A stretch of 64,000 nucleotides of DNA, from the NCBI GenBank assembly GCA_003565295.1, contig PXCO01000254.1, positions 1-64,000 on the forward strand, given 5' to 3'. The position numbers and the translations under genes are program-made. Of the stretch, positions 10,143 through 40,456 are shown piece after piece. Every line of letters begins with the position of its first letter. Position 1 is the stretch's first letter. The stretch is from Cyclobacteriaceae bacterium. Its GTDB lineage: Bacteria > Bacteroidota > Bacteroidia > Cytophagales > Cyclobacteriaceae. The notes under the pieces were generated by a model that ran no database searches, had not been told where the DNA came from, and saw nothing but the letters and a program-made list of their open reading frames with translations.

Positions 10143-11177
10143 ATGAATAGAAGAAGATTTGCTTTGCGAAGCATTGCTGCCGCTTTTGGTTTAGGCCTTC
10201 CGCATGGGTATTCAAGAGGGCAGTCGCAAACATTGACTACTAAAAAAACCAGCGTTTCCACCTTTAGCACAGAAGGCAACAAAGTCAAATGCTATTTAGA
10301 AGGCTTAGAGACACCCTCCAGATTATTGCATGTGACAGATACCCACCTATTTATGGATGACGACAGGGGGAAACCCTTCCAGCAATACAGCGGGAGAATG
10401 GCTAAAGCCTATAATGAAACCAAGCATTTTGAAACCGGGGAGCCAACCCATCCTGAGAAAGCTTTTCTGGAAACTATTGCCTATGCAAAAGAACAGGGCA
10501 TTGATCTACTCGGGCTTTCTGGTGACATATTTAGTTTTCCGTCAGAAGCGGCCATAGATTGGGTGCTAAACCATCTTTCCGAAAGTGGATTGGATTACCT
10601 CTATACAGCAGGTAACCATGATTGGCACTATGAGGGGATGAAAGGCAGTTTGCATGAACTACGTGATACTTGGACAAAAGAAAGACTGCTGCCCTTGTAT
10701 CAGGGGGGACACCCACTAATGAACAGCAAGACCATCAACGGCATAAAATTTATCAGTATAGACAATTCGCTTTACGAAATCAACGAAGACCAATTATCCT
10801 ACTTCAGGGAAGAAGTCAAATCCGGGGAACCTGTGGTGCTATTAGTGCATATTCCATTTTACGCCCCTGGCAGATATGTGAGCTATGGCTGTGGCCATCC
10901 TGAATGGGGTGCTGAATCAGATACCATATTCGAAATCGAGGGCCGGATCAGGTGGCCTGAAAGCGGGCACAATGCCACTACGTATGCCTTTTATGAGGAA
11001 GTTTTTGGAGGGGGAAATGTCACTTCTGTATTCGCCGGGCACGTACACCGGCAGACTGTGGATGTGATTAACGGTATACCCCAGTTCCTGGCCCCACCCA
11101 ATGCCATGGGAGGGTTCCTCGAAGTGGAATTTTTACCTTTAGCGGAAAAGTGGCCACCGGGCATTAAGCAAGAATGA
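10143..11177 (+). CDS. Metallophosphoesterase, probably exported (Tat-like RRR signal)
   Basis: MNRRRFALRSIAAAFGLGLP; VTDTHLFMDDD, GLSGDIFSFPS, TAGNHDWHYEG, VLLVHIPFY, VFAGHVHRQ (GDxx, GNHD and GHxH motifs). Confidence 0.9.
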   Translation: MNRRRFALRSIAAAFGLGLPHGYSRGQSQTLTTKKTSVSTFSTEGNKVKCYLEGLETPSRLLHVTDTHLFMDDDRGKPFQQYSGRMAKAYNETKHFETGEPTHPEKAFLETIAYAKEQGIDLLGLSGDIFSFPSEAAIDWVLNHLSESGLDYLYTAGNHDWHYEGMKGSLHELRDTWTKERLLPLYQGGHPLMNSKTINGIKFISIDNSLYEINEDQLSYFREEVKSGEPVVLLVHIPFYAPGRYVSYGCGHPEWGAESDTIFEIEGRIRWPESGHNATTYAFYEEVFGGGNVTSVFAGHVHRQTVDVINGIPQFLAPPNAMGGFLEVEFLPLAEKWPPGIKQE

Positions 11178-31379: not shown

Positions 31380-32864
31380 ATGATTGAAGAAACTAAAACC
31401 GCCCCTATTTCCGCGGAAATCAAGGGCAAATATGAGCTGGTCATAGGACTAGAGGTACATGCCCAGTTATTGACGAATAGTAAAATGTACACCTCGGATT
31501 CCACCACTTTCGGGAATCTGCCCAATACTAACATTTCCGTAATCACGCTGGGGCATCCCGGCACCTTGCCCAAAGTAAACAAGCGGGCCGTGGAATATGC
31601 TATAAGGATGGGATTGGCCTGCGATTGTGAAGTCACCAGAAGGAATATTTTTTCAAGGAAAAACTATTTCTATCCCGACTTGCCCAAGGGTTATCAGATC
31701 ACCCAGGACAAGGGGCCTATATGCGTAGGGGGGCAAATCCCCATCATCTTGGGAGACGGCACCAAGAAAAACGTTAAACTCAACCGAATTCATATGGAGG
31801 AGGACGCAGGTAAATCCATGCACTTGGTAGGCGAGACAGATACCCTGGTGGACTTCAACAGGGCGGGAGTGCCTTTGATTGAAATTGTTTCCGAACCGGA
31901 CATGAGATCTTCCGAGGAGGCGTATATGTTCCTTATGGAAATCAAGAAGCTGGTAAGGTACCTTGAAATATGTGACGGAAACATGGAAGAGGGTTCCCTA
32001 AGATGTGACGCCAACATTTCCATAATGCCCAAAGGCGCAAAGGAATTCGGTAAAAAGGTAGAGGTGAAAAACATGAACTCCTTCAGGAATGTGGCCAGGG
32101 CGATAGAACATGAGTTTGAAAGACAAATCGTAATGGTGGAAAGTGGTGAGGAGATTATTTCTGAAACCAGGACCTTTGATGCCACTAGCGGTCTTACCAG
32201 CAGCATGCGGACCAAGGAGGACTTAAATGACTACCGGTATTTCCCCGAACCGGATCTGAGCCCAGTAGTGGTATCAGAAGAATGGCTTGAGAATATCCAA
32301 AACGAACTGCCCCCGCTCCCCAGGGAATTGTTTCAAAAGTTCGTGGACAAGTATGGCTTGCCGCCCTACGATGCCGGTGTCCTTACTGACTCCAAGGAAA
32401 TCGCCCTTTATTTCGAATCATTATGCCAATCTACAAAAAATTATAAAGCGGCCTCAAACTGGATGATGGGGCCTGTTAAATCTTATTTAAATGAGCTGAC
32501 CCTCCACATTGATGATTTCCCCATAAAACCCGAAGGGATTGCGGCGTTGATCAAAATGGTGGACGAGGGAAAAGTGAGTTTTTCGGTGGCTTCCCAGCGG
32601 GTTTACCCGGAGATGCTTAAAGCAGACGGAAGGGACCCTTCGGAAATTGCACAAGCCTTAAACCTGATACAAGATAGTGATGAGGGATCCATTAAACCTA
32701 TCATTGAACAAGTCCTTGCCGAAAACCCTGGGAAAGTAAACGAGTATAAAGCAGGTAAAAAGGGCTTACTGGGGATGTTCATGGGGCAGGTGATGAAAAG
32801 ATCCAAGGGAAAGGCGGACCCCAAATTGGCCAACAAAATCCTTATTGAATTATTGGAAAAATAA
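31380..32864 (+). CDS. gatB: Asp-tRNA(Asn)/Glu-tRNA(Gln) amidotransferase subunit GatB
   Basis: YELVIGLEVHAQL, GHPGTLPKVNKRAVEYAIRMGLA, FSRKNYFYPDLPKGYQITQ. Confidence 0.98.
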   Translation: MIEETKTAPISAEIKGKYELVIGLEVHAQLLTNSKMYTSDSTTFGNLPNTNISVITLGHPGTLPKVNKRAVEYAIRMGLACDCEVTRRNIFSRKNYFYPDLPKGYQITQDKGPICVGGQIPIILGDGTKKNVKLNRIHMEEDAGKSMHLVGETDTLVDFNRAGVPLIEIVSEPDMRSSEEAYMFLMEIKKLVRYLEICDGNMEEGSLRCDANISIMPKGAKEFGKKVEVKNMNSFRNVARAIEHEFERQIVMVESGEEIISETRTFDATSGLTSSMRTKEDLNDYRYFPEPDLSPVVVSEEWLENIQNELPPLPRELFQKFVDKYGLPPYDAGVLTDSKEIALYFESLCQSTKNYKAASNWMMGPVKSYLNELTLHIDDFPIKPEGIAALIKMVDEGKVSFSVASQRVYPEMLKADGRDPSEIAQALNLIQDSDEGSIKPIIEQVLAENPGKVNEYKAGKKGLLGMFMGQVMKRSKGKADPKLANKILIELLEK

Positions 32865-32865
32865 C

Positions 32866-33981
32866 ATGAGAACTAAAAGCACACCCCTATATATCCTATT
32901 GATATGCAGTATGTTAATTATTGCATGCGGTGAGGAGGAAAAAAAGTTTGACGGAAAGGTGAAAATTTCCGGCAGTTTAGATAACTATCCGGAGGGCTTT
33001 CTCGTACTCTCCGAATACGCAAATGACAGGACTAACGTAGTTGACACTATTAAGGTGAAAAATGGAGGGAAGTTTGAATACGAACTCACCCTTGATGGCC
33101 CTAACTTTTACGAATTAAACCTGATGGATGCAGAGACGGTAAGATTGGCCTTATATCATGAAGATGTGGAAATCAATTATGATTTTGAATCCCAGGAATT
33201 AGCACTGAAAGGTTCGAGGGACAGCGAAATGCTGAGAAAGATTGATGAGGTTACGTTGCTATATCAGGAAGAAGGAAATGAGTTAAACACGGAGTTTTAT
33301 GAAGCCATGGCAGACAGGGACCAGGAAGCCATTAAGGCTATCCAAGAAAAGGCGATGCAGCTTGAGGTAAACCATGCCAGCCGGGTAAAGGAAAGTATTA
33401 ATCAAATGGACGGCAGTTTCGCCGCATTGGCAGGATTGGGAATGCTAAACCCCAGGAATGATTTCAATTACATAGACAGTACGTTGAACGCTTTAGGGGA
33501 ACGCTATCCTGATATGAAAATGATCACTACCTGGAAGCAGGAGTTGGATGAGATGCGTGCATTGAGCGTGGGGCAGCCAGCTCCCGAAATTGCCCTTCCC
33601 AACCCTGATGGTAATATTCAAAAGCTTTCGGAACTGCGCGGGAAATACGTATTGGTGGACTTTTGGGCAGGGTGGTGCAGACCTTGCAGGGAAGAAAACC
33701 CCAATGTGGTCAGGTTATATAACAAATACAAGGATCAAGGGTTTGAGGTGTTTGGCGTTTCTTTGGACAGGACAAGAGAAATGTGGGAAAAAGCTATTGA
33801 GGAAGATGGGCTGGAGTGGACTCAAGTATCCGATCTCAAATATTTTAATTCGGAGGCTGCTGCCACTTATCAGATAAATGCTATTCCGGCTACCTATATG
33901 ATAGACCCTGATGGAAACATTTTGGCGAAAGATTTGAGGGGCATAACGCTTGAAAACAAATTGGCCGAAATCTTTGATTAA
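32866..33981 (+). CDS. TlpA-family thioredoxin with DUF4369-like N-terminus, lipoprotein
   Basis: ICSMLIIACGEEEKK lipobox-like; ISGSLDNYPEGFLVLSEY; ALPNPDGNIQKLSELRGKYVLVDFWAGWCRPCREENP. ATG at 32866. Confidence 0.92.
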   Translation: MRTKSTPLYILLICSMLIIACGEEEKKFDGKVKISGSLDNYPEGFLVLSEYANDRTNVVDTIKVKNGGKFEYELTLDGPNFYELNLMDAETVRLALYHEDVEINYDFESQELALKGSRDSEMLRKIDEVTLLYQEEGNELNTEFYEAMADRDQEAIKAIQEKAMQLEVNHASRVKESINQMDGSFAALAGLGMLNPRNDFNYIDSTLNALGERYPDMKMITTWKQELDEMRALSVGQPAPEIALPNPDGNIQKLSELRGKYVLVDFWAGWCRPCREENPNVVRLYNKYKDQGFEVFGVSLDRTREMWEKAIEEDGLEWTQVSDLKYFNSEAAATYQINAIPATYMIDPDGNILAKDLRGITLENKLAEIFD

Positions 33982-34264: not shown

Positions 34265-34738
34265 ATGAAAAAAAGAAGTTTTAATTACCCATTGAATCGG
34301 TTGGTTACCGTGATGCTTCTTGGCTTATTGGTCTTTGGAGCATGCAAGAGCAAAAAGAAGGTGGTAGAAGCTGCCCCTGAGCCAGAGCCCGTGGAAGAGC
34401 CAGCGCCAGCGCCCAAGGAGGAAAAACCTGCCCAGCCTACGGCAGAGGAGGTTGCAGTCGGAAAATTGGAGGGATATTTCAATTCCATCGCCAATGCCAG
34501 TAACGTACAGAGCGCAAACAACACCATTAGGGAAGCCTTAGGATTGTTTACCAATCAGAACACACCCGTCTTGATTGTCATCCATGAAGAGTCCGGCATC
34601 AAGGACTATGATGAGCCTACTACCATAGAGAAGTACCTACACTACCTGAAAGACACTAAGAAAAACCTCAATTTTGTGAGTGACATCAGGATGGACGGTA
34701 GTGGAAAGGTGACCGAACTTGAACTCCGAAGAAGATAA
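34265..34738 (+). CDS. Hypothetical lipoprotein with Pro/Glu-rich linker and small C-terminal domain
   Basis: LLVFGACKSKKK lipobox, EAAPEPEPVEEPAPAPKEEKPAQP linker, YFNSIANASNVQSANNTIREALGLF... Confidence 0.75.
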   Translation: MKKRSFNYPLNRLVTVMLLGLLVFGACKSKKKVVEAAPEPEPVEEPAPAPKEEKPAQPTAEEVAVGKLEGYFNSIANASNVQSANNTIREALGLFTNQNTPVLIVIHEESGIKDYDEPTTIEKYLHYLKDTKKNLNFVSDIRMDGSGKVTELELRRR

Positions 34739-34764
34739 TTTACCACCATAGCAATTAGACAATC

Positions 34765-35343
34765 ATGAAAAAATACGTTTCATCCCTTTTGATCCTTTTT
34801 ATGGCCAGCACAATGATGGCCATGGCGCAAGATGACAACATCAGTCCTTCCAGGAAGCAAGCAATTGATTCTTTGGCTTTGGAAAAAGTGAAGGACCTCA
34901 GTAAATATATCAGTATCATCGGGAGCAAGGAAACCCAATTTTCCGAAGCTACCCGGGTAATGGACAGGGCTGAGGAGCTTTTTGCCCCTGATGCGGAAAT
35001 GGGTGTGTCCTCCGTTAACAGAAGTGAAATCGCTTATTATAAAATCAGGCGTTATTTCGAGCGGTTAATGGCCTTGAATTATGACCGGGTCAACATCAGC
35101 TGGTATGATATTCACTACATCAGTGACCTTGAGCGACAGCCCGACGGCAGGTATGTGGGCGTAATCACCATCTATCAACGATTTGAAGGCACCTCTCAAG
35201 AGGCCGGATTAAATTACAGAGACACCACCAAAAAAGACATCACCATCTACGTGGAGAAAAAGCAGACCCAGATCGCCGGAAGGACCATCGAGTTTTGGGA
35301 TGTGCTTCTAGGTGATGTGAGGGTGACCGAAACTTCAGCATGA
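34765..35343 (+). CDS. Hypothetical secreted protein (GSKET-type small domain)
   Basis: Signal peptide LILFMASTMMAMAQ; KYISIIGSKETQFSEATRVMDRAEELF... Confidence 0.75.
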   Translation: MKKYVSSLLILFMASTMMAMAQDDNISPSRKQAIDSLALEKVKDLSKYISIIGSKETQFSEATRVMDRAEELFAPDAEMGVSSVNRSEIAYYKIRRYFERLMALNYDRVNISWYDIHYISDLERQPDGRYVGVITIYQRFEGTSQEAGLNYRDTTKKDITIYVEKKQTQIAGRTIEFWDVLLGDVRVTETSA

Positions 35344-36179
35344 GAATAAGCATAGTATCTTTATTATTAATTTTCATATCCTTTCATAGTTCCCCGGGGC
35401 AGACATTCAACAGCTCCGGGCAACTGGAGGATGATGGGCGGTTCGCCGCCTCCACAAAGCAAGTAAACCAGTTTTTCAGGAGGTTTAATGCAGAAGAAAG
35501 TAAAGAAGGGAATATCAGGTATTACCCAGAAGACGAAAACTATAGGGATAGGGATTTAAGGAGGAATTTTATCAATATCCTCTTTGACAATGAGACCTCC
35601 GATGTTCCCGTGGAATTGAAACGGGAATTTATCAATAACGTGACATCTGAATCCTACCCTCAATACCTGAGGTTTCACGGTGGGGATTGGTTCGCCGAAG
35701 CCACCACTGTATTCAATTTTGAGGGGAAGAAACATGATGTAACCTTGTTTTTAAAATTGCAGCCAGAGGGCCTGGGGTATGAGTGGGTAATTGAAAATGT
35801 GAATTTTGAGCCTTTCCGCCAGGCTTTCGACAAGCCAAAAGGAGACGATAAGAAGTTCCTGCATCCGCTGAGCCATGAACTCGGGTTTATGAATTTACGT
35901 AAAGCTATACAGGACAACCCTAAACCGGAGTCTTATACGCCAAAGGATTTCAAGCCGGAATACCTCACCTTGTTCATCTACGAAATAAAAAAAGGGAGGC
36001 TCAAGTTTGAAACGGTGAAGGAGGTGAAATACCATTTTTTCCAAATCGACAAATGGTATTTTGAATTAGCACAATTCAACCGTCCTGGTTTCAACACCGG
36101 CTGGCTGATTTCTAACTTGGTAAAGTTAGACGATGGAGACAAGGAGGTGATATTAGATTTTATTTATGAACAGCGCTAA
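35340..36179 (+). CDS. Hypothetical secreted protein
   Basis: Signal peptide SLLLIFISFHSSPGQ. ATGA overlap with the upstream gene and overlap with the downstream gene. Confidence 0.75.
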   Translation: MRISIVSLLLIFISFHSSPGQTFNSSGQLEDDGRFAASTKQVNQFFRRFNAEESKEGNIRYYPEDENYRDRDLRRNFINILFDNETSDVPVELKREFINNVTSESYPQYLRFHGGDWFAEATTVFNFEGKKHDVTLFLKLQPEGLGYEWVIENVNFEPFRQAFDKPKGDDKKFLHPLSHELGFMNLRKAIQDNPKPESYTPKDFKPEYLTLFIYEIKKGRLKFETVKEVKYHFFQIDKWYFELAQFNRPGFNTGWLISNLVKLDDGDKEVILDFIYEQR

Positions 36180-38619
36180 AAAATGTTTGCTACTTTTAAT
36201 CCTTTGCTTTGGAAATCATTTCCCCACATTTGCTCAAGATCTGGGAGATTATGATAAGCAGGAAATTAAAGACCTCACCGATCAGGTGCAGGATCAAATC
36301 AGGTTTTTGCAATACTTTTTGAACACAGTAGGAAGCAAGGAGACCTCGGCCAGAGACAAGGATGTGATCATTAGGGAAAGTTTCAGGAAAATTTTCCGGG
36401 ACGATCAGGTGCAAGTGGAAGATGACTTATTGCTAGACCGTAAGGTCATCACTAATAAAAGTATCACCGCCTATCTCAAGGATGTGGATTTCTTTTTCAA
36501 AGATGTGAATTTCAATTTCAAGGTCAGGGAAATTAAACCTCATCTAAAGGATAATGGCGAACTCTACTTTCAAGTCACCCTAGATCGAACCCTTAATGGC
36601 ATAGGCATCAACAATGAAAAAGTAGAAAACACAAGGGAGCGCTTTGTTGAAATTAACTGGGAAAAGGACGCCAAAGAGCTGAAAATCGCAAGTATCTACA
36701 CTACTAAACTTAGCAGGGATGAAGAACTCAGGGAATGGTGGGAATCTTTGTCTTATCAGTGGGACCTGTACTTCAGGGAAAAATTTGGTATTGAGGAAGA
36801 GGACAGCGTATCGCTCGACCATATCTATAAATTCAGCAGCATTGACAGTCTGGATCTTTCCGGCAACAGGGTGCTAGTGGACCTAGCCCCTATTCATGCT
36901 CTAAGGGAGCTGAAATATGTGAATATCAGTGGGACAAATATTGAAGAGTTGGGCCCTATCAGTAATGTCACTTTTCTGGCACATTTAGACATTTCAAATA
37001 CCCCCGCAAATGACATACAATTCATTAAATATTCCGATAGGATAACCTACTTAGATATATCCGACACCGAAATCCGAAATATCGATGATTTGGGAAATCT
37101 TAAGAACCTTAAAATACTAAAAGCTGCCAGAACGCCATTAATTGGTTTTGGAGTAATCAATAATTTCACCAACCTAGAACACCTGGACCTTGAAGAAAGT
37201 GGGTTTAACAATGTCGAGAACATCAAAGAACTCACCAACCTGAAAACGCTAAATTTAAAGGGAAATTTCCTGATCAATTTTGGTTTCTTAGGAGATCTGG
37301 AAAACCTTGAAGAAATCAATCTGGAGGAAACCAATATCCTTGACCTATCCCCATTGGCTGTTCTCAAAAAACTCTGGCGCATCAATATAAACGGCACCGA
37401 GGTCAGCAGCCTAGCTCCATTATCCGGTTCTAGCAACCTGAGAAGAATTTATGCGGACAGAACAAGCATAACAGAAGAAGATGCGGACAATTTTGCCAGA
37501 AGTAACCGGCGAATCCTTTTAATCCATAACGTGGAAAACCTCCAAACCTGGTGGGAAACCCTTCCAGAGGGATGGAATAAAATGCTCGAAAAAATCTACC
37601 CAGAAATAAGCAGGGGTTCTCCTAGCGTAGAAGAACTCACCGAAATGGTAGGGATAGACTCTTTGAATCTCTCAGGAAGCGAGATCATCAACTTGAGGCC
37701 TGCTTTGAAATTTAAAAAGGTATCTTACCTGGCTTTTGATAATACCAAAGTGCATGACCTATCCCCGCTTGCTGAAATGAAAACACTTACCCATATCAGC
37801 GGAGAGAACAGTGCAGTCACTAATGTGGAGGCACTAGAGAACCTTGGTGCGTTGGAATACCTTTCCCTTAAAAGAAGTAAAATTGCCTCAGTAAACCCCT
37901 TGAAACGCCTTTCCGGTCTTAAGTTATTGGATTTGGACGGCACCGAAGTAGCGGCCTGGGAGATTCAAGAATTGACAAGGGTACTCCCTGCAGCAACGGT
38001 AGTGTTCAGGACAGAAGAACTGGAACAATGGTGGGAGAATTTAAATAACGACTGGAGAGGGGTTCTGGAAAATCAATTTGACCTTGACGAGGGACCAAGT
38101 TCTATTCAGCTTCATAAAATGACCTCTTCGGATAAAGTCATAGCCGAGAATGTGAACATAGAAGACCTTGAGCCCTTGTTGGCCTTTTTCAATTTGAGAG
38201 AATTAAGCATCCATAATGCCCCACTCAGGGATATTAGTGCTGTCAGCAGAATGGAAAACCTAAATTCACTCAGGCTATCTCAGTCACCCCTCAGAGATTT
38301 GACCCCCATTTCTGAGTTGAGTTACCTGGAGTCCCTGGACGTATCCAATACTGGCGTAGAAGATCTTAGACCCCTTGGAGATTTAAACAGGCTAAGAAAA
38401 TTAAACCTGTCAGGGACAAATATCAGTAGGCTTAGGGGCCTAGACACACTCTATGACCTAAGAGAATTAGACATCGCCAGCACAAATGTGAGAAATCTAA
38501 ACCCTATTATGCATTTGGTGAATTTGGAAAAGTTGGTCTGTTTCAATACGAGAATCAACCGGAGAAGGGTAGAAAAGTTCCAGCAAAACAATCCTGACGC
38601 AGAAGTGAGATTTTATTGA
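36166..38619 (+). CDS. Secreted leucine-rich repeat protein with three WWE-cap/LRR modules
   Basis: Signal peptide CLLLLILCFGNHFPTFAQ; many LxxLxLxxT/N repeats; WWESL, WWETL and WWENL segments each preceding an LRR block. Confidence 0.88.
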   Translation: MNSAKKCLLLLILCFGNHFPTFAQDLGDYDKQEIKDLTDQVQDQIRFLQYFLNTVGSKETSARDKDVIIRESFRKIFRDDQVQVEDDLLLDRKVITNKSITAYLKDVDFFFKDVNFNFKVREIKPHLKDNGELYFQVTLDRTLNGIGINNEKVENTRERFVEINWEKDAKELKIASIYTTKLSRDEELREWWESLSYQWDLYFREKFGIEEEDSVSLDHIYKFSSIDSLDLSGNRVLVDLAPIHALRELKYVNISGTNIEELGPISNVTFLAHLDISNTPANDIQFIKYSDRITYLDISDTEIRNIDDLGNLKNLKILKAARTPLIGFGVINNFTNLEHLDLEESGFNNVENIKELTNLKTLNLKGNFLINFGFLGDLENLEEINLEETNILDLSPLAVLKKLWRININGTEVSSLAPLSGSSNLRRIYADRTSITEEDADNFARSNRRILLIHNVENLQTWWETLPEGWNKMLEKIYPEISRGSPSVEELTEMVGIDSLNLSGSEIINLRPALKFKKVSYLAFDNTKVHDLSPLAEMKTLTHISGENSAVTNVEALENLGALEYLSLKRSKIASVNPLKRLSGLKLLDLDGTEVAAWEIQELTRVLPAATVVFRTEELEQWWENLNNDWRGVLENQFDLDEGPSSIQLHKMTSSDKVIAENVNIEDLEPLLAFFNLRELSIHNAPLRDISAVSRMENLNSLRLSQSPLRDLTPISELSYLESLDVSNTGVEDLRPLGDLNRLRKLNLSGTNISRLRGLDTLYDLRELDIASTNVRNLNPIMHLVNLEKLVCFNTRINRRRVEKFQQNNPDAEVRFY

Positions 38620-38687: not shown

Positions 38688-39179
38688 TTATTCCTTAATG
38701 AAAGAGGAGAGCATCCAGTGGTGCAATTCCAAACTTTTGATAAAGGCAATCAACATGTCTTCAGTAGCAGTATCTCCTAGGTCGGCTACCTTAATAGCGC
38801 ATTCATTCATGGTGTCCACCAGGACCTGAAAATCCCTTAAGGTTTCTTCCACCATCTCTTTGGAACTCAAATCGGTGCCTACCTCCTTTATATCCGCATG
38901 GGAAAGATAATCCTTCATCAAGCTTAATGGCGTCATACCAAATACCCTGATCCTTTCGGCAACAAGGTCAATATTCGCAAAAGCCTCGTCGTATAGCTCT
39001 TCAAATTTATCATGGAGGTCAAAGAAGTCCCCACCAGTCACGTTCCAATGGAAATTCCTCAATTTTTGGTAATGCACATGATAGTTCGCCAACAACTTGT
39101 TGAGGGAGTCAACGATTTTTTCAGACTCATCCTTATTATACCCAAGTTTTTTAAAAACTCTTTTTTCTGATACGCTCAT
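38688..39179 (-). CDS. dps: Dps-family DNA starvation/stress ferritin-like protein
   Basis: NKLLANYHVHYQKLRNFHWNVTGGDFFDLHDKFEELYDEAFANIDLVAERIRVFG. Confidence 0.93.
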   Translation of the reverse strand: MSVSEKRVFKKLGYNKDESEKIVDSLNKLLANYHVHYQKLRNFHWNVTGGDFFDLHDKFEELYDEAFANIDLVAERIRVFGMTPLSLMKDYLSHADIKEVGTDLSSKEMVEETLRDFQVLVDTMNECAIKVADLGDTATEDMLIAFIKSLELHHWMLSSFIKE

Positions 39180-39427: not shown

Positions 39428-40456
39428 TTACCGATGAAAAACCATTTGCAAACTAAGCCTTAAGAGTTCTCCCATATTCTTGCACTGAAGGAATTGTTGG
39501 TTTTTGTAATGCCTGGCCAAATCCCGTGTTAAGGAGGCCGTATTTTCAGGAGTAGAGATCACGTCCAATTCCATAGCGGAAAGGATATCTTCTATTTCCT
39601 TCGTAGACGACTTAAGCCTGGTCGCAATCAGGGCCCTTTCCTCTCGTTGATATTGCGCCATGGATTCAGGGGTAATATGTTTGATGCCAAGCTGAATAAG
39701 GGCGTTGTTTTGCTTAAAATATTGAGGCAGATAAATCGACTTCTTTCCCTCATAGGATTGTTGGTCAAAATCTATGGCCCTAATCCTGTAATGAGTTTCC
39801 TCAAAGTCGGGAGTAACATCAATCACAAAATTGGAAGAGTGCATATCTCCCAGCAGCCTCACAAAACAACGCTCATTAAACTTCACAAACTCTTTGGCCA
39901 GCCTAATGGGATTGATCAAGGGGTCATGGATCTGTTGTTTCATAAACTGCTCCCCGGGAATACCTGCTATATGTTCCTCTATCAAGGAATCCTTGTACAC
40001 CAAATAACTAATCCTATTTGGGGAAAGCAAATGCTCCAACTCCAACCCATATACACGGGATGCGTCTGCATTTTTGATATAAAAATAATCAAAGTTGTCA
40101 TTAATCCGGTTTACGATCCTCACACGAAATGGCTGGGTGTTGCCGTAAATACATAGGTCAATCCGGTCTATGTATAAATGCTGCATCACACTCATGTCCC
40201 CATCAGCCTTTAATAGGGCATAAATCTTTTTTACCTTATAATGAATATCCGTCCTGTCGCTCTCATCGTAAAAAACGGTTTCCCAAAGCGTGTCATTCCC
40301 TTTAAAATCATATAGGGCTATGGAATTGCTATACCTCAACAAATCCTTGTAGTGAATGGGGATATCCACTTCCCTCCCATACTTCACCAGGTAAGCCCTA
40401 AGTTGCTCACTAATGGGGTATATGATCTTTTTTTTACTTATGACTGCCATAGGCAA
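39428..40456 (-). CDS. Uncharacterised protein with kinase-like (APH/HipA-type) C-terminal signature
   Basis: LIEEHIAGIPGEQF ... VRLLGDMHSSNFVIDV ... YRIRAIDFDQQSYEGKK resembles xxEyIpG, GDxHxxN and DFD kinase-fold motifs. Confidence 0.6.
   Translation of the reverse strand: MPMAVISKKKIIYPISEQLRAYLVKYGREVDIPIHYKDLLRYSNSIALYDFKGNDTLWETVFYDESDRTDIHYKVKKIYALLKADGDMSVMQHLYIDRIDLCIYGNTQPFRVRIVNRINDNFDYFYIKNADASRVYGLELEHLLSPNRISYLVYKDSLIEEHIAGIPGEQFMKQQIHDPLINPIRLAKEFVKFNERCFVRLLGDMHSSNFVIDVTPDFEETHYRIRAIDFDQQSYEGKKSIYLPQYFKQNNALIQLGIKHITPESMAQYQREERALIATRLKSSTKEIEDILSAMELDVISTPENTASLTRDLARHYKNQQFLQCKNMGELLRLSLQMVFHR

Follow-up and report, generated by a model that had tools for sequence, protein, structure and literature searches.

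What do four consecutive genes for exported proteins, the last of them encoding a modular LRR protein, accomplish together in the envelope of a Cyclobacteriaceae bacterium, and which of them forms the core of the system? The genes lie within a 64,000-nucleotide stretch of DNA, referred to below as the window. An interpretation made from the letters alone (the sequence-only reading) had taken their products for co-expressed periplasmic or surface components, with the LRR protein as a possible scaffold or ligand binder.

Organization of the locus

Inspection of the open reading frames revealed four genes in the same orientation, joined at two junctions by short overlaps and followed by a strong terminator (Table 1). 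Gene 1 encodes a lipoprotein with a lipobox ending at Cys27, followed by a P/E/A-rich linker and a C-terminal domain of about 90 aa. Each product of genes 2-4 starts with a Sec-type signal peptide whose last residues are AQ or GQ, as read from the sequence. The lipoprotein with a PE-rich linker, the three further exported proteins, the two overlaps and the terminator described in the sequence-only reading are therefore all present.

Table 1. Features of the four-gene locus (window coordinates)
Feature	Position	Strand	Description or basis
Four-gene locus	34265-38619	+	exported proteins; open reading frames
Gene 1	34265-34738	+	157 aa; lipoprotein
Gene 2	34765-35343	+	192 aa; Sec-exported, single domain
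Gene 3	35340-36179	+	279 aa; Sec-exported
Gene 4	36166-38619	+	817 aa; Sec-exported, modular: N-terminal domain and three LRR arrays
ATGA stop/start overlap (4 nt), genes 2/3	35340-35343	+	sequence
14-nt overlap, genes 3/4	36166-36179	+	sequence
Gene 4 N-terminal domain	36241-36720	+	about aa 26-185; profile comparison with gene 2
Gene 4 C-terminal part, three capped LRR modules	36721-38619	+	domain models, repeat reading
Bidirectional intrinsic terminator	38625-38676		fold -32.8 kcal/mol, z = -8.6

The terminator hairpin is bidirectional and separates gene 4 from the convergent Dps/ferritin-like gene (38688-39179), so it may serve both. Upstream of gene 1 there is an AT-rich gap of 283 nt, in which no Bacteroidota promoter consensus was found, preceded by a thioredoxin-like gene (32845-33981, + strand). 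The listed TTG start of the latter lies inside gatB, and an ATG at 32866 is a better fit to relatives. Rfam models gave no match anywhere in the window.

No usable match for genes 1-3 was found in Pfam, NCBIfam, PADLOC or the PDB sequences. None of the four members matched an enzyme family, in agreement with the absence of enzyme motifs noted earlier, and no PADLOC model of anti-phage defence was matched. The domain hit to an already characterized system that would have spoken against the sequence-only reading was thus not found in these collections. The open-access literature, to which the search was confined (subscription papers being outside its scope), yielded no paper on the operon. The folds of gene 2 and of the LRRs are of known kinds, and the novelty concerns the system itself.

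Conservation and co-inheritance of the four genes

We compared 102 loci from Cyclobacteriaceae genera (the window, 21 from relatives and 80 from a genome collection, some genomes possibly being counted in both sets). The order 1-2-3-4 holds for 101 of them, the exception being a truncated contig. Genes 2 and 3 share the ATGA overlap (offset -4) in 95 of 101 loci and genes 3 and 4 the 14-nt overlap (offset -14) in 90 of 100, which is more than chance. The flanks of the unit are common to near relatives and different in more distant genera, and therefore its conservation does not reflect general synteny. Co-occurrence outside this strain, on which the sequence-only reading had staked its proposal, is thus well documented.

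Among 59 relatives, gene 2 was detected in 29 (two of them with divergent or weak matches), gene 3 in 27, and the gene 4 domain in 25 of those same 27 genomes; the agreement in presence and absence gives a Fisher p of about 1e-14, with genomes taken without phylogenetic correction. All 16 genomes of other families that have a gene 2 ortholog also carry genes 3 and 4. In six genomes the set is split and nevertheless complete: in G475, G488, G522, G486 and G552 it occupies three contigs, one with genes 1-2, one with gene 3 and one with gene 4, and in G511 it is divided between two contigs, in each case amid unrelated genes. The LRR cap at the end of gene 4 is likewise of unchanged type in these genomes. 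Such retention without linkage is the strongest evidence here for a joint function. The four genes are a real conserved system whose members behave as obligate partners, and the four exported proteins very probably act together.

Gene 2 and its related domains

NTF2-like proteins share a common fold, but no sequence motif is common to the superfamily (PMC3924330). The AF2 model of gene 2 (pLDDT 89.7) has a predicted helix-helix-hairpin-helix-four-strand fold, for which Foldseek returned mostly NTF2-like structures. The best match was 3ef8 (E 5.7e-4), and the top matches included scytalone dehydratase, LinA, ActVI-ORFA, a bile-acid dehydratase and the CaMKII hub. TM-scores were modest, i.e. about 0.39-0.47 for the better NTF2-like matches when normalized to the query and mostly 0.4-0.6 when normalized to the target. 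An NTF2-like fold is therefore predicted for gene 2, although none of 29 gene 2 members matched the described NTF2-like Pfam families.

Comparison of profiles connected gene 2 with two of its partners, a relationship missed by the sequence-only reading. The gene 2 profile aligns with the N-terminal domain of gene 4 (hhalign E 9e-8), and its search of genomes also matched a gene 4 ortholog (E 2.9e-5). The initial portion of the gene 2 domain has a relative in the C-terminal domain of gene 1, with the moderate support of one comparison (hhalign E 1e-5). Gene 1 and the gene 4 N-terminal domain gave no direct profile signal, and their link runs through gene 2 only. On these alignments, genes 1 and 2 and the N-terminus of gene 4 appear to share one related domain. 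In L190 an extra exported protein of 125 aa (10590-10967, - strand) with a gene 2-like half domain is placed between genes 1 and 2.

Gene 3 stands apart. Its model (pLDDT 82.9) consists of two successive units, each of a helix and three strands; Foldseek found no confident match among solved structures (best E 0.048), and homology with gene 2 was rejected, as profile comparison showed no sequence relation.

Lipoproteins of some Bacteroidota are directed to the cell surface by a K-(D/E)2 or Q-A-(D/E)2 motif, which has been defined in families other than that of the window (PMC5080379). This motif is absent from all 22 gene 1 orthologs. Within them C27-K28 is invariant and the stretch after the lipidated cysteine is basic (CKSKKK in the window). 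Because the post-Cys residues are basic and carry no known surface-export signal, the lipoprotein is suggested to face the periplasm, with the reservation that the signal was defined elsewhere in the phylum.

The LRR arm and evolutionary rates

The C-terminal part of gene 4 is composed of three modules, another feature absent from the earlier interpretation, in each of which a helical WW..L...W cap precedes SDS22/internalin-like LRRs of the LRR_4 type (22-residue repeats). The protein ends in a conserved C-terminal LRR cap, and further cap matches lie near residues 456-477 and 640-659 of one ortholog. Likeness to the NCBIfam InlA model (E 3e-38) amounts to 131.5 bits against a cut-off of 1600, so gene 4 is not a curated internalin. 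It differs from internalins also in its gene 2-related N-terminal domain, its three helical-capped arrays and its lack of a wall anchor.

Substitution rates were compared between the window and a congener by dN only, because dS was saturated for most genes. Values rise from gene 2 (0.009) through gene 1 (0.022) and gene 3 (0.044) to gene 4 (0.094), with 0.079 for gatB and 0.117 for alaS. Gene 2 thus evolves about ten times more slowly than the neighboring gatB. It is the most conserved of the four members, a property the earlier interpretation had overlooked, and is 91-94% identical to its Lunatimonas and Cyclobacterium orthologs. The core of the system is probably gene 2 rather than the LRR protein, which the sequence-only reading had cast as a possible scaffold or ligand binder: gene 2 looks like the hub, and gene 4, fastest-evolving and most replaceable, like a variable arm.

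Replacement of the arm is seen in the wider family. Relatives of gene 2 were found in 157 of 391 genomes of the order Cytophagales and in 11 of 396 genomes of the phylum, all but three within the order. In the distant loci gene 2 is kept, often with an added N-terminal extension, and so are the gene 4-type domain and usually gene 3, while the arm is replaced by a TPR or TPR-like one (L057, L061, L196, L198, L201, L202) or by an Ig-like or other one (L059, L060, L186). The gene 4 N-terminal domain aligns with the domain heading these TPR- and Ig-like-tailed homologs (hhalign E 2e-15). The 802-aa protein of L062 could not be shown to contain the gene 4 domain, nor could the neighbor of the gene 2 relative in the distant lineage L204 be shown to be homologous with gene 3. 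A second, shorter copy of the system in L225 (8763-12238, - strand) has genes 1, 2 and 4 (218, 224 and 698 aa) without gene 3.

Proposed function

The chances are about even, in our estimation, that the locus encodes one periplasmic, membrane-tethered, non-enzymatic scaffold or adaptor complex, of which we infer the assembly, the side of the membrane, the scaffold role and the target alike. Gene 2, with its predicted NTF2-like domain, would be the invariant hub and gene 3 its constant partner. The related domain of gene 1, carried on a flexible linker, would tether the complex to the membrane on the periplasmic side, and gene 4 would join through its own gene 2-related domain. The LRR arm may then bind another protein or an envelope polymer, and a swapped repeat arm would change the target between lineages. 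In principle such a role would be comparable with that of VirB8 or the CaMKII hub, in which NTF2-like domains serve assembly.

This model is consistent with the conserved order and overlaps amid differing flanks, with the joint retention of unlinked genes and the matching presence and absence, with the predicted NTF2-like fold of gene 2 and the related domains of three members, and with the gradient of rates. The exchange of arms around a constant gene 2, and usually gene 3, also fits, as do the absence of a surface signal from gene 1 and the location of some paralogous units within T6SSiii operons, where periplasmic assembly parts abound. Against it, NTF2-like folds often belong to enzymes, the relation of genes 1 and 2 is moderate, gene 3 has no sequence relation to gene 2, and the Foldseek TM-scores are modest.

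VirB8-like proteins have a known membrane-near assembly role (PMC4840375), and the predicted fold of gene 2 resembles the NTF2-like assembly domains of VirB8/TraH and the CaMKII hub as well as, by fold, scytalone dehydratase and LinA. The present system differs from these in that it matches no sequence family, has three related domains in one operon, and is coupled with an LRR arm and with gene 3, for which no fold match is known. A strictly co-inherited set with three members outside any curated family, one of them some tenfold slower than GatB, points to an important unnamed envelope function in a large order of bacteria.

Alternatively, the system might be an envelope sensor, with an LRR arm that responds to a ligand or to damage of the envelope and a gene 1 domain that relays this state to a signaling protein. 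A Ser/Thr kinase with a TM segment and a proline-rich linker is encoded directly upstream of gene 2/3/4-type genes in L057 (10660-12255, - strand), and its C-terminal region aligns end to end with gene 1 (E 0.002). The C-terminal region of a second such kinase, of 522 aa and from a different family (L245, 223-1791, + strand), likewise resembles gene 1, and TPR or LRR arms are suited to recognition. However, such gene 1-like kinases are uncommon, with 3 matches among 391 genomes, and of the two described here just one lies near gene 2. The window locus has no kinase, and no part of its gene 1 lipoprotein lies in the cytoplasm. Variation at some of the exposed LRR strand positions of gene 4 fits the binding of a ligand or of a partner alike. 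We therefore regard a sensor as rather unlikely.

Relation to secretion systems

The membrane complex of T6SSiii, TssN-Q-O-P-R (PMC10781749), is likewise a set of exported periplasmic proteins that includes a lipoprotein, and paralogs of genes 2 and 4 (in some cases also of gene 3) occur in or near T6SSiii clusters. Of the 31 gene 2-type copies listed in TssC-positive genomes, 20 lie within 20 kb of tssC, nearly all of these coming from one other family and many from related species. In G691 and G046 such copies are located inside the T6SSiii operon, whose order in G691 is tssK, membrane protein, tssH, protease, lipoproteins, gene 2 type, OmpA, gene 4 type, tssB and tssC, with tssN beyond. T6SSiii operons of L203 (6386-9799, + strand), L199 and L062/L207 likewise encode proteins of the gene 2 and gene 4 types (in L062, of genes 2 and 3), with OmpA, M10-like protease and Fn3 lipoprotein genes as neighbors. 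Some of the paralog loci have PorP/SprF or T9SS-cargo genes next to them.

These loci raise the question of whether the system of the window organism is itself a secretion or assembly factor related to T6SSiii or T9SS, which we consider unlikely. TssC is absent from the window genome, so that membership of the window system in a T6SSiii was rejected, and was found in only 3 of 59 relatives. Neither genes 1-4 nor the proteins aligned for gene 2 and for gene 3 matched the Pfam models of TssN, TssO or TssR. The copies linked to T6SS, most of them from a single family, are paralogs whose arms differ, whereas the stand-alone operon has LRR arms. GldM, a T9SS component, is present in 56 of the 59 relatives and the four-gene system in about half, so the latter is not a core T9SS part; being near-universal, T9SS was rejected as a discriminating trait.

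T6SSiii systems without membrane-complex parts are concentrated in Spirosoma, Hymenobacter and Flavobacterium, according to a survey (PMC10781749). We hypothesize that the T6SSiii-linked paralogs replace such missing parts, and they are testable candidates for the envelope components that, as reported in 2024 (PMC10781749), are absent from Spirosoma and related systems or could not be identified there. More tentatively than the scaffold complex itself, we suggest that the family represents order-wide periplasmic machines of the Cytophagales, in which a fixed NTF2-like core, made up of gene 2 and in most cases gene 3, is combined with an N-terminal adaptor domain whose LRR, TPR or Ig-like arm can be exchanged. 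One branch would use them as stand-alone complexes, and in another they would be integrated into the envelope complex of the T6SSiii, perhaps in place of the missing parts.

Catalysis and surface display

Scytalone dehydratase, LinA and the bile-acid dehydratase among the top Foldseek matches, together with several polar residues of gene 2 that are invariant in the alignment (Q138, Y151, D153, T155 and K157), might indicate catalytic NTF2-like domains of the dehydratase/isomerase type, to which the LRR protein presents a substrate. This is very improbable: the enzyme-family searches were negative for every member, the best structural matches also include the non-catalytic CaMKII hubs, and assembly accounts better for the presence of three related domains in partners that are obligate. 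A ligand-binding complex displayed by a surface lipoprotein, which the joint presence of a lipoprotein and an internalin-like LRR protein in one operon might recommend, is just as improbable, since all 22 gene 1 orthologs lack the export signal (PMC5080379), no Pfam or NCBIfam T9SS sorting-domain model matched the gene 4 C-terminus, and the unit has no outer-membrane barrel. Of the earlier picture of co-expressed periplasmic or surface components, co-expression and joint action are thus supported and surface exposure is not.

Beyond the Dps-like gene, the window encodes a protein of 342 aa (39428-40456, - strand) that is 83-92% identical in several genera. It belongs to no Pfam family (a V-SNARE match fell below the cut-off), and its GDMHSSNFV...IRAIDFD motif is reminiscent of the HxxN...DxD of kinase-like phosphotransferases.
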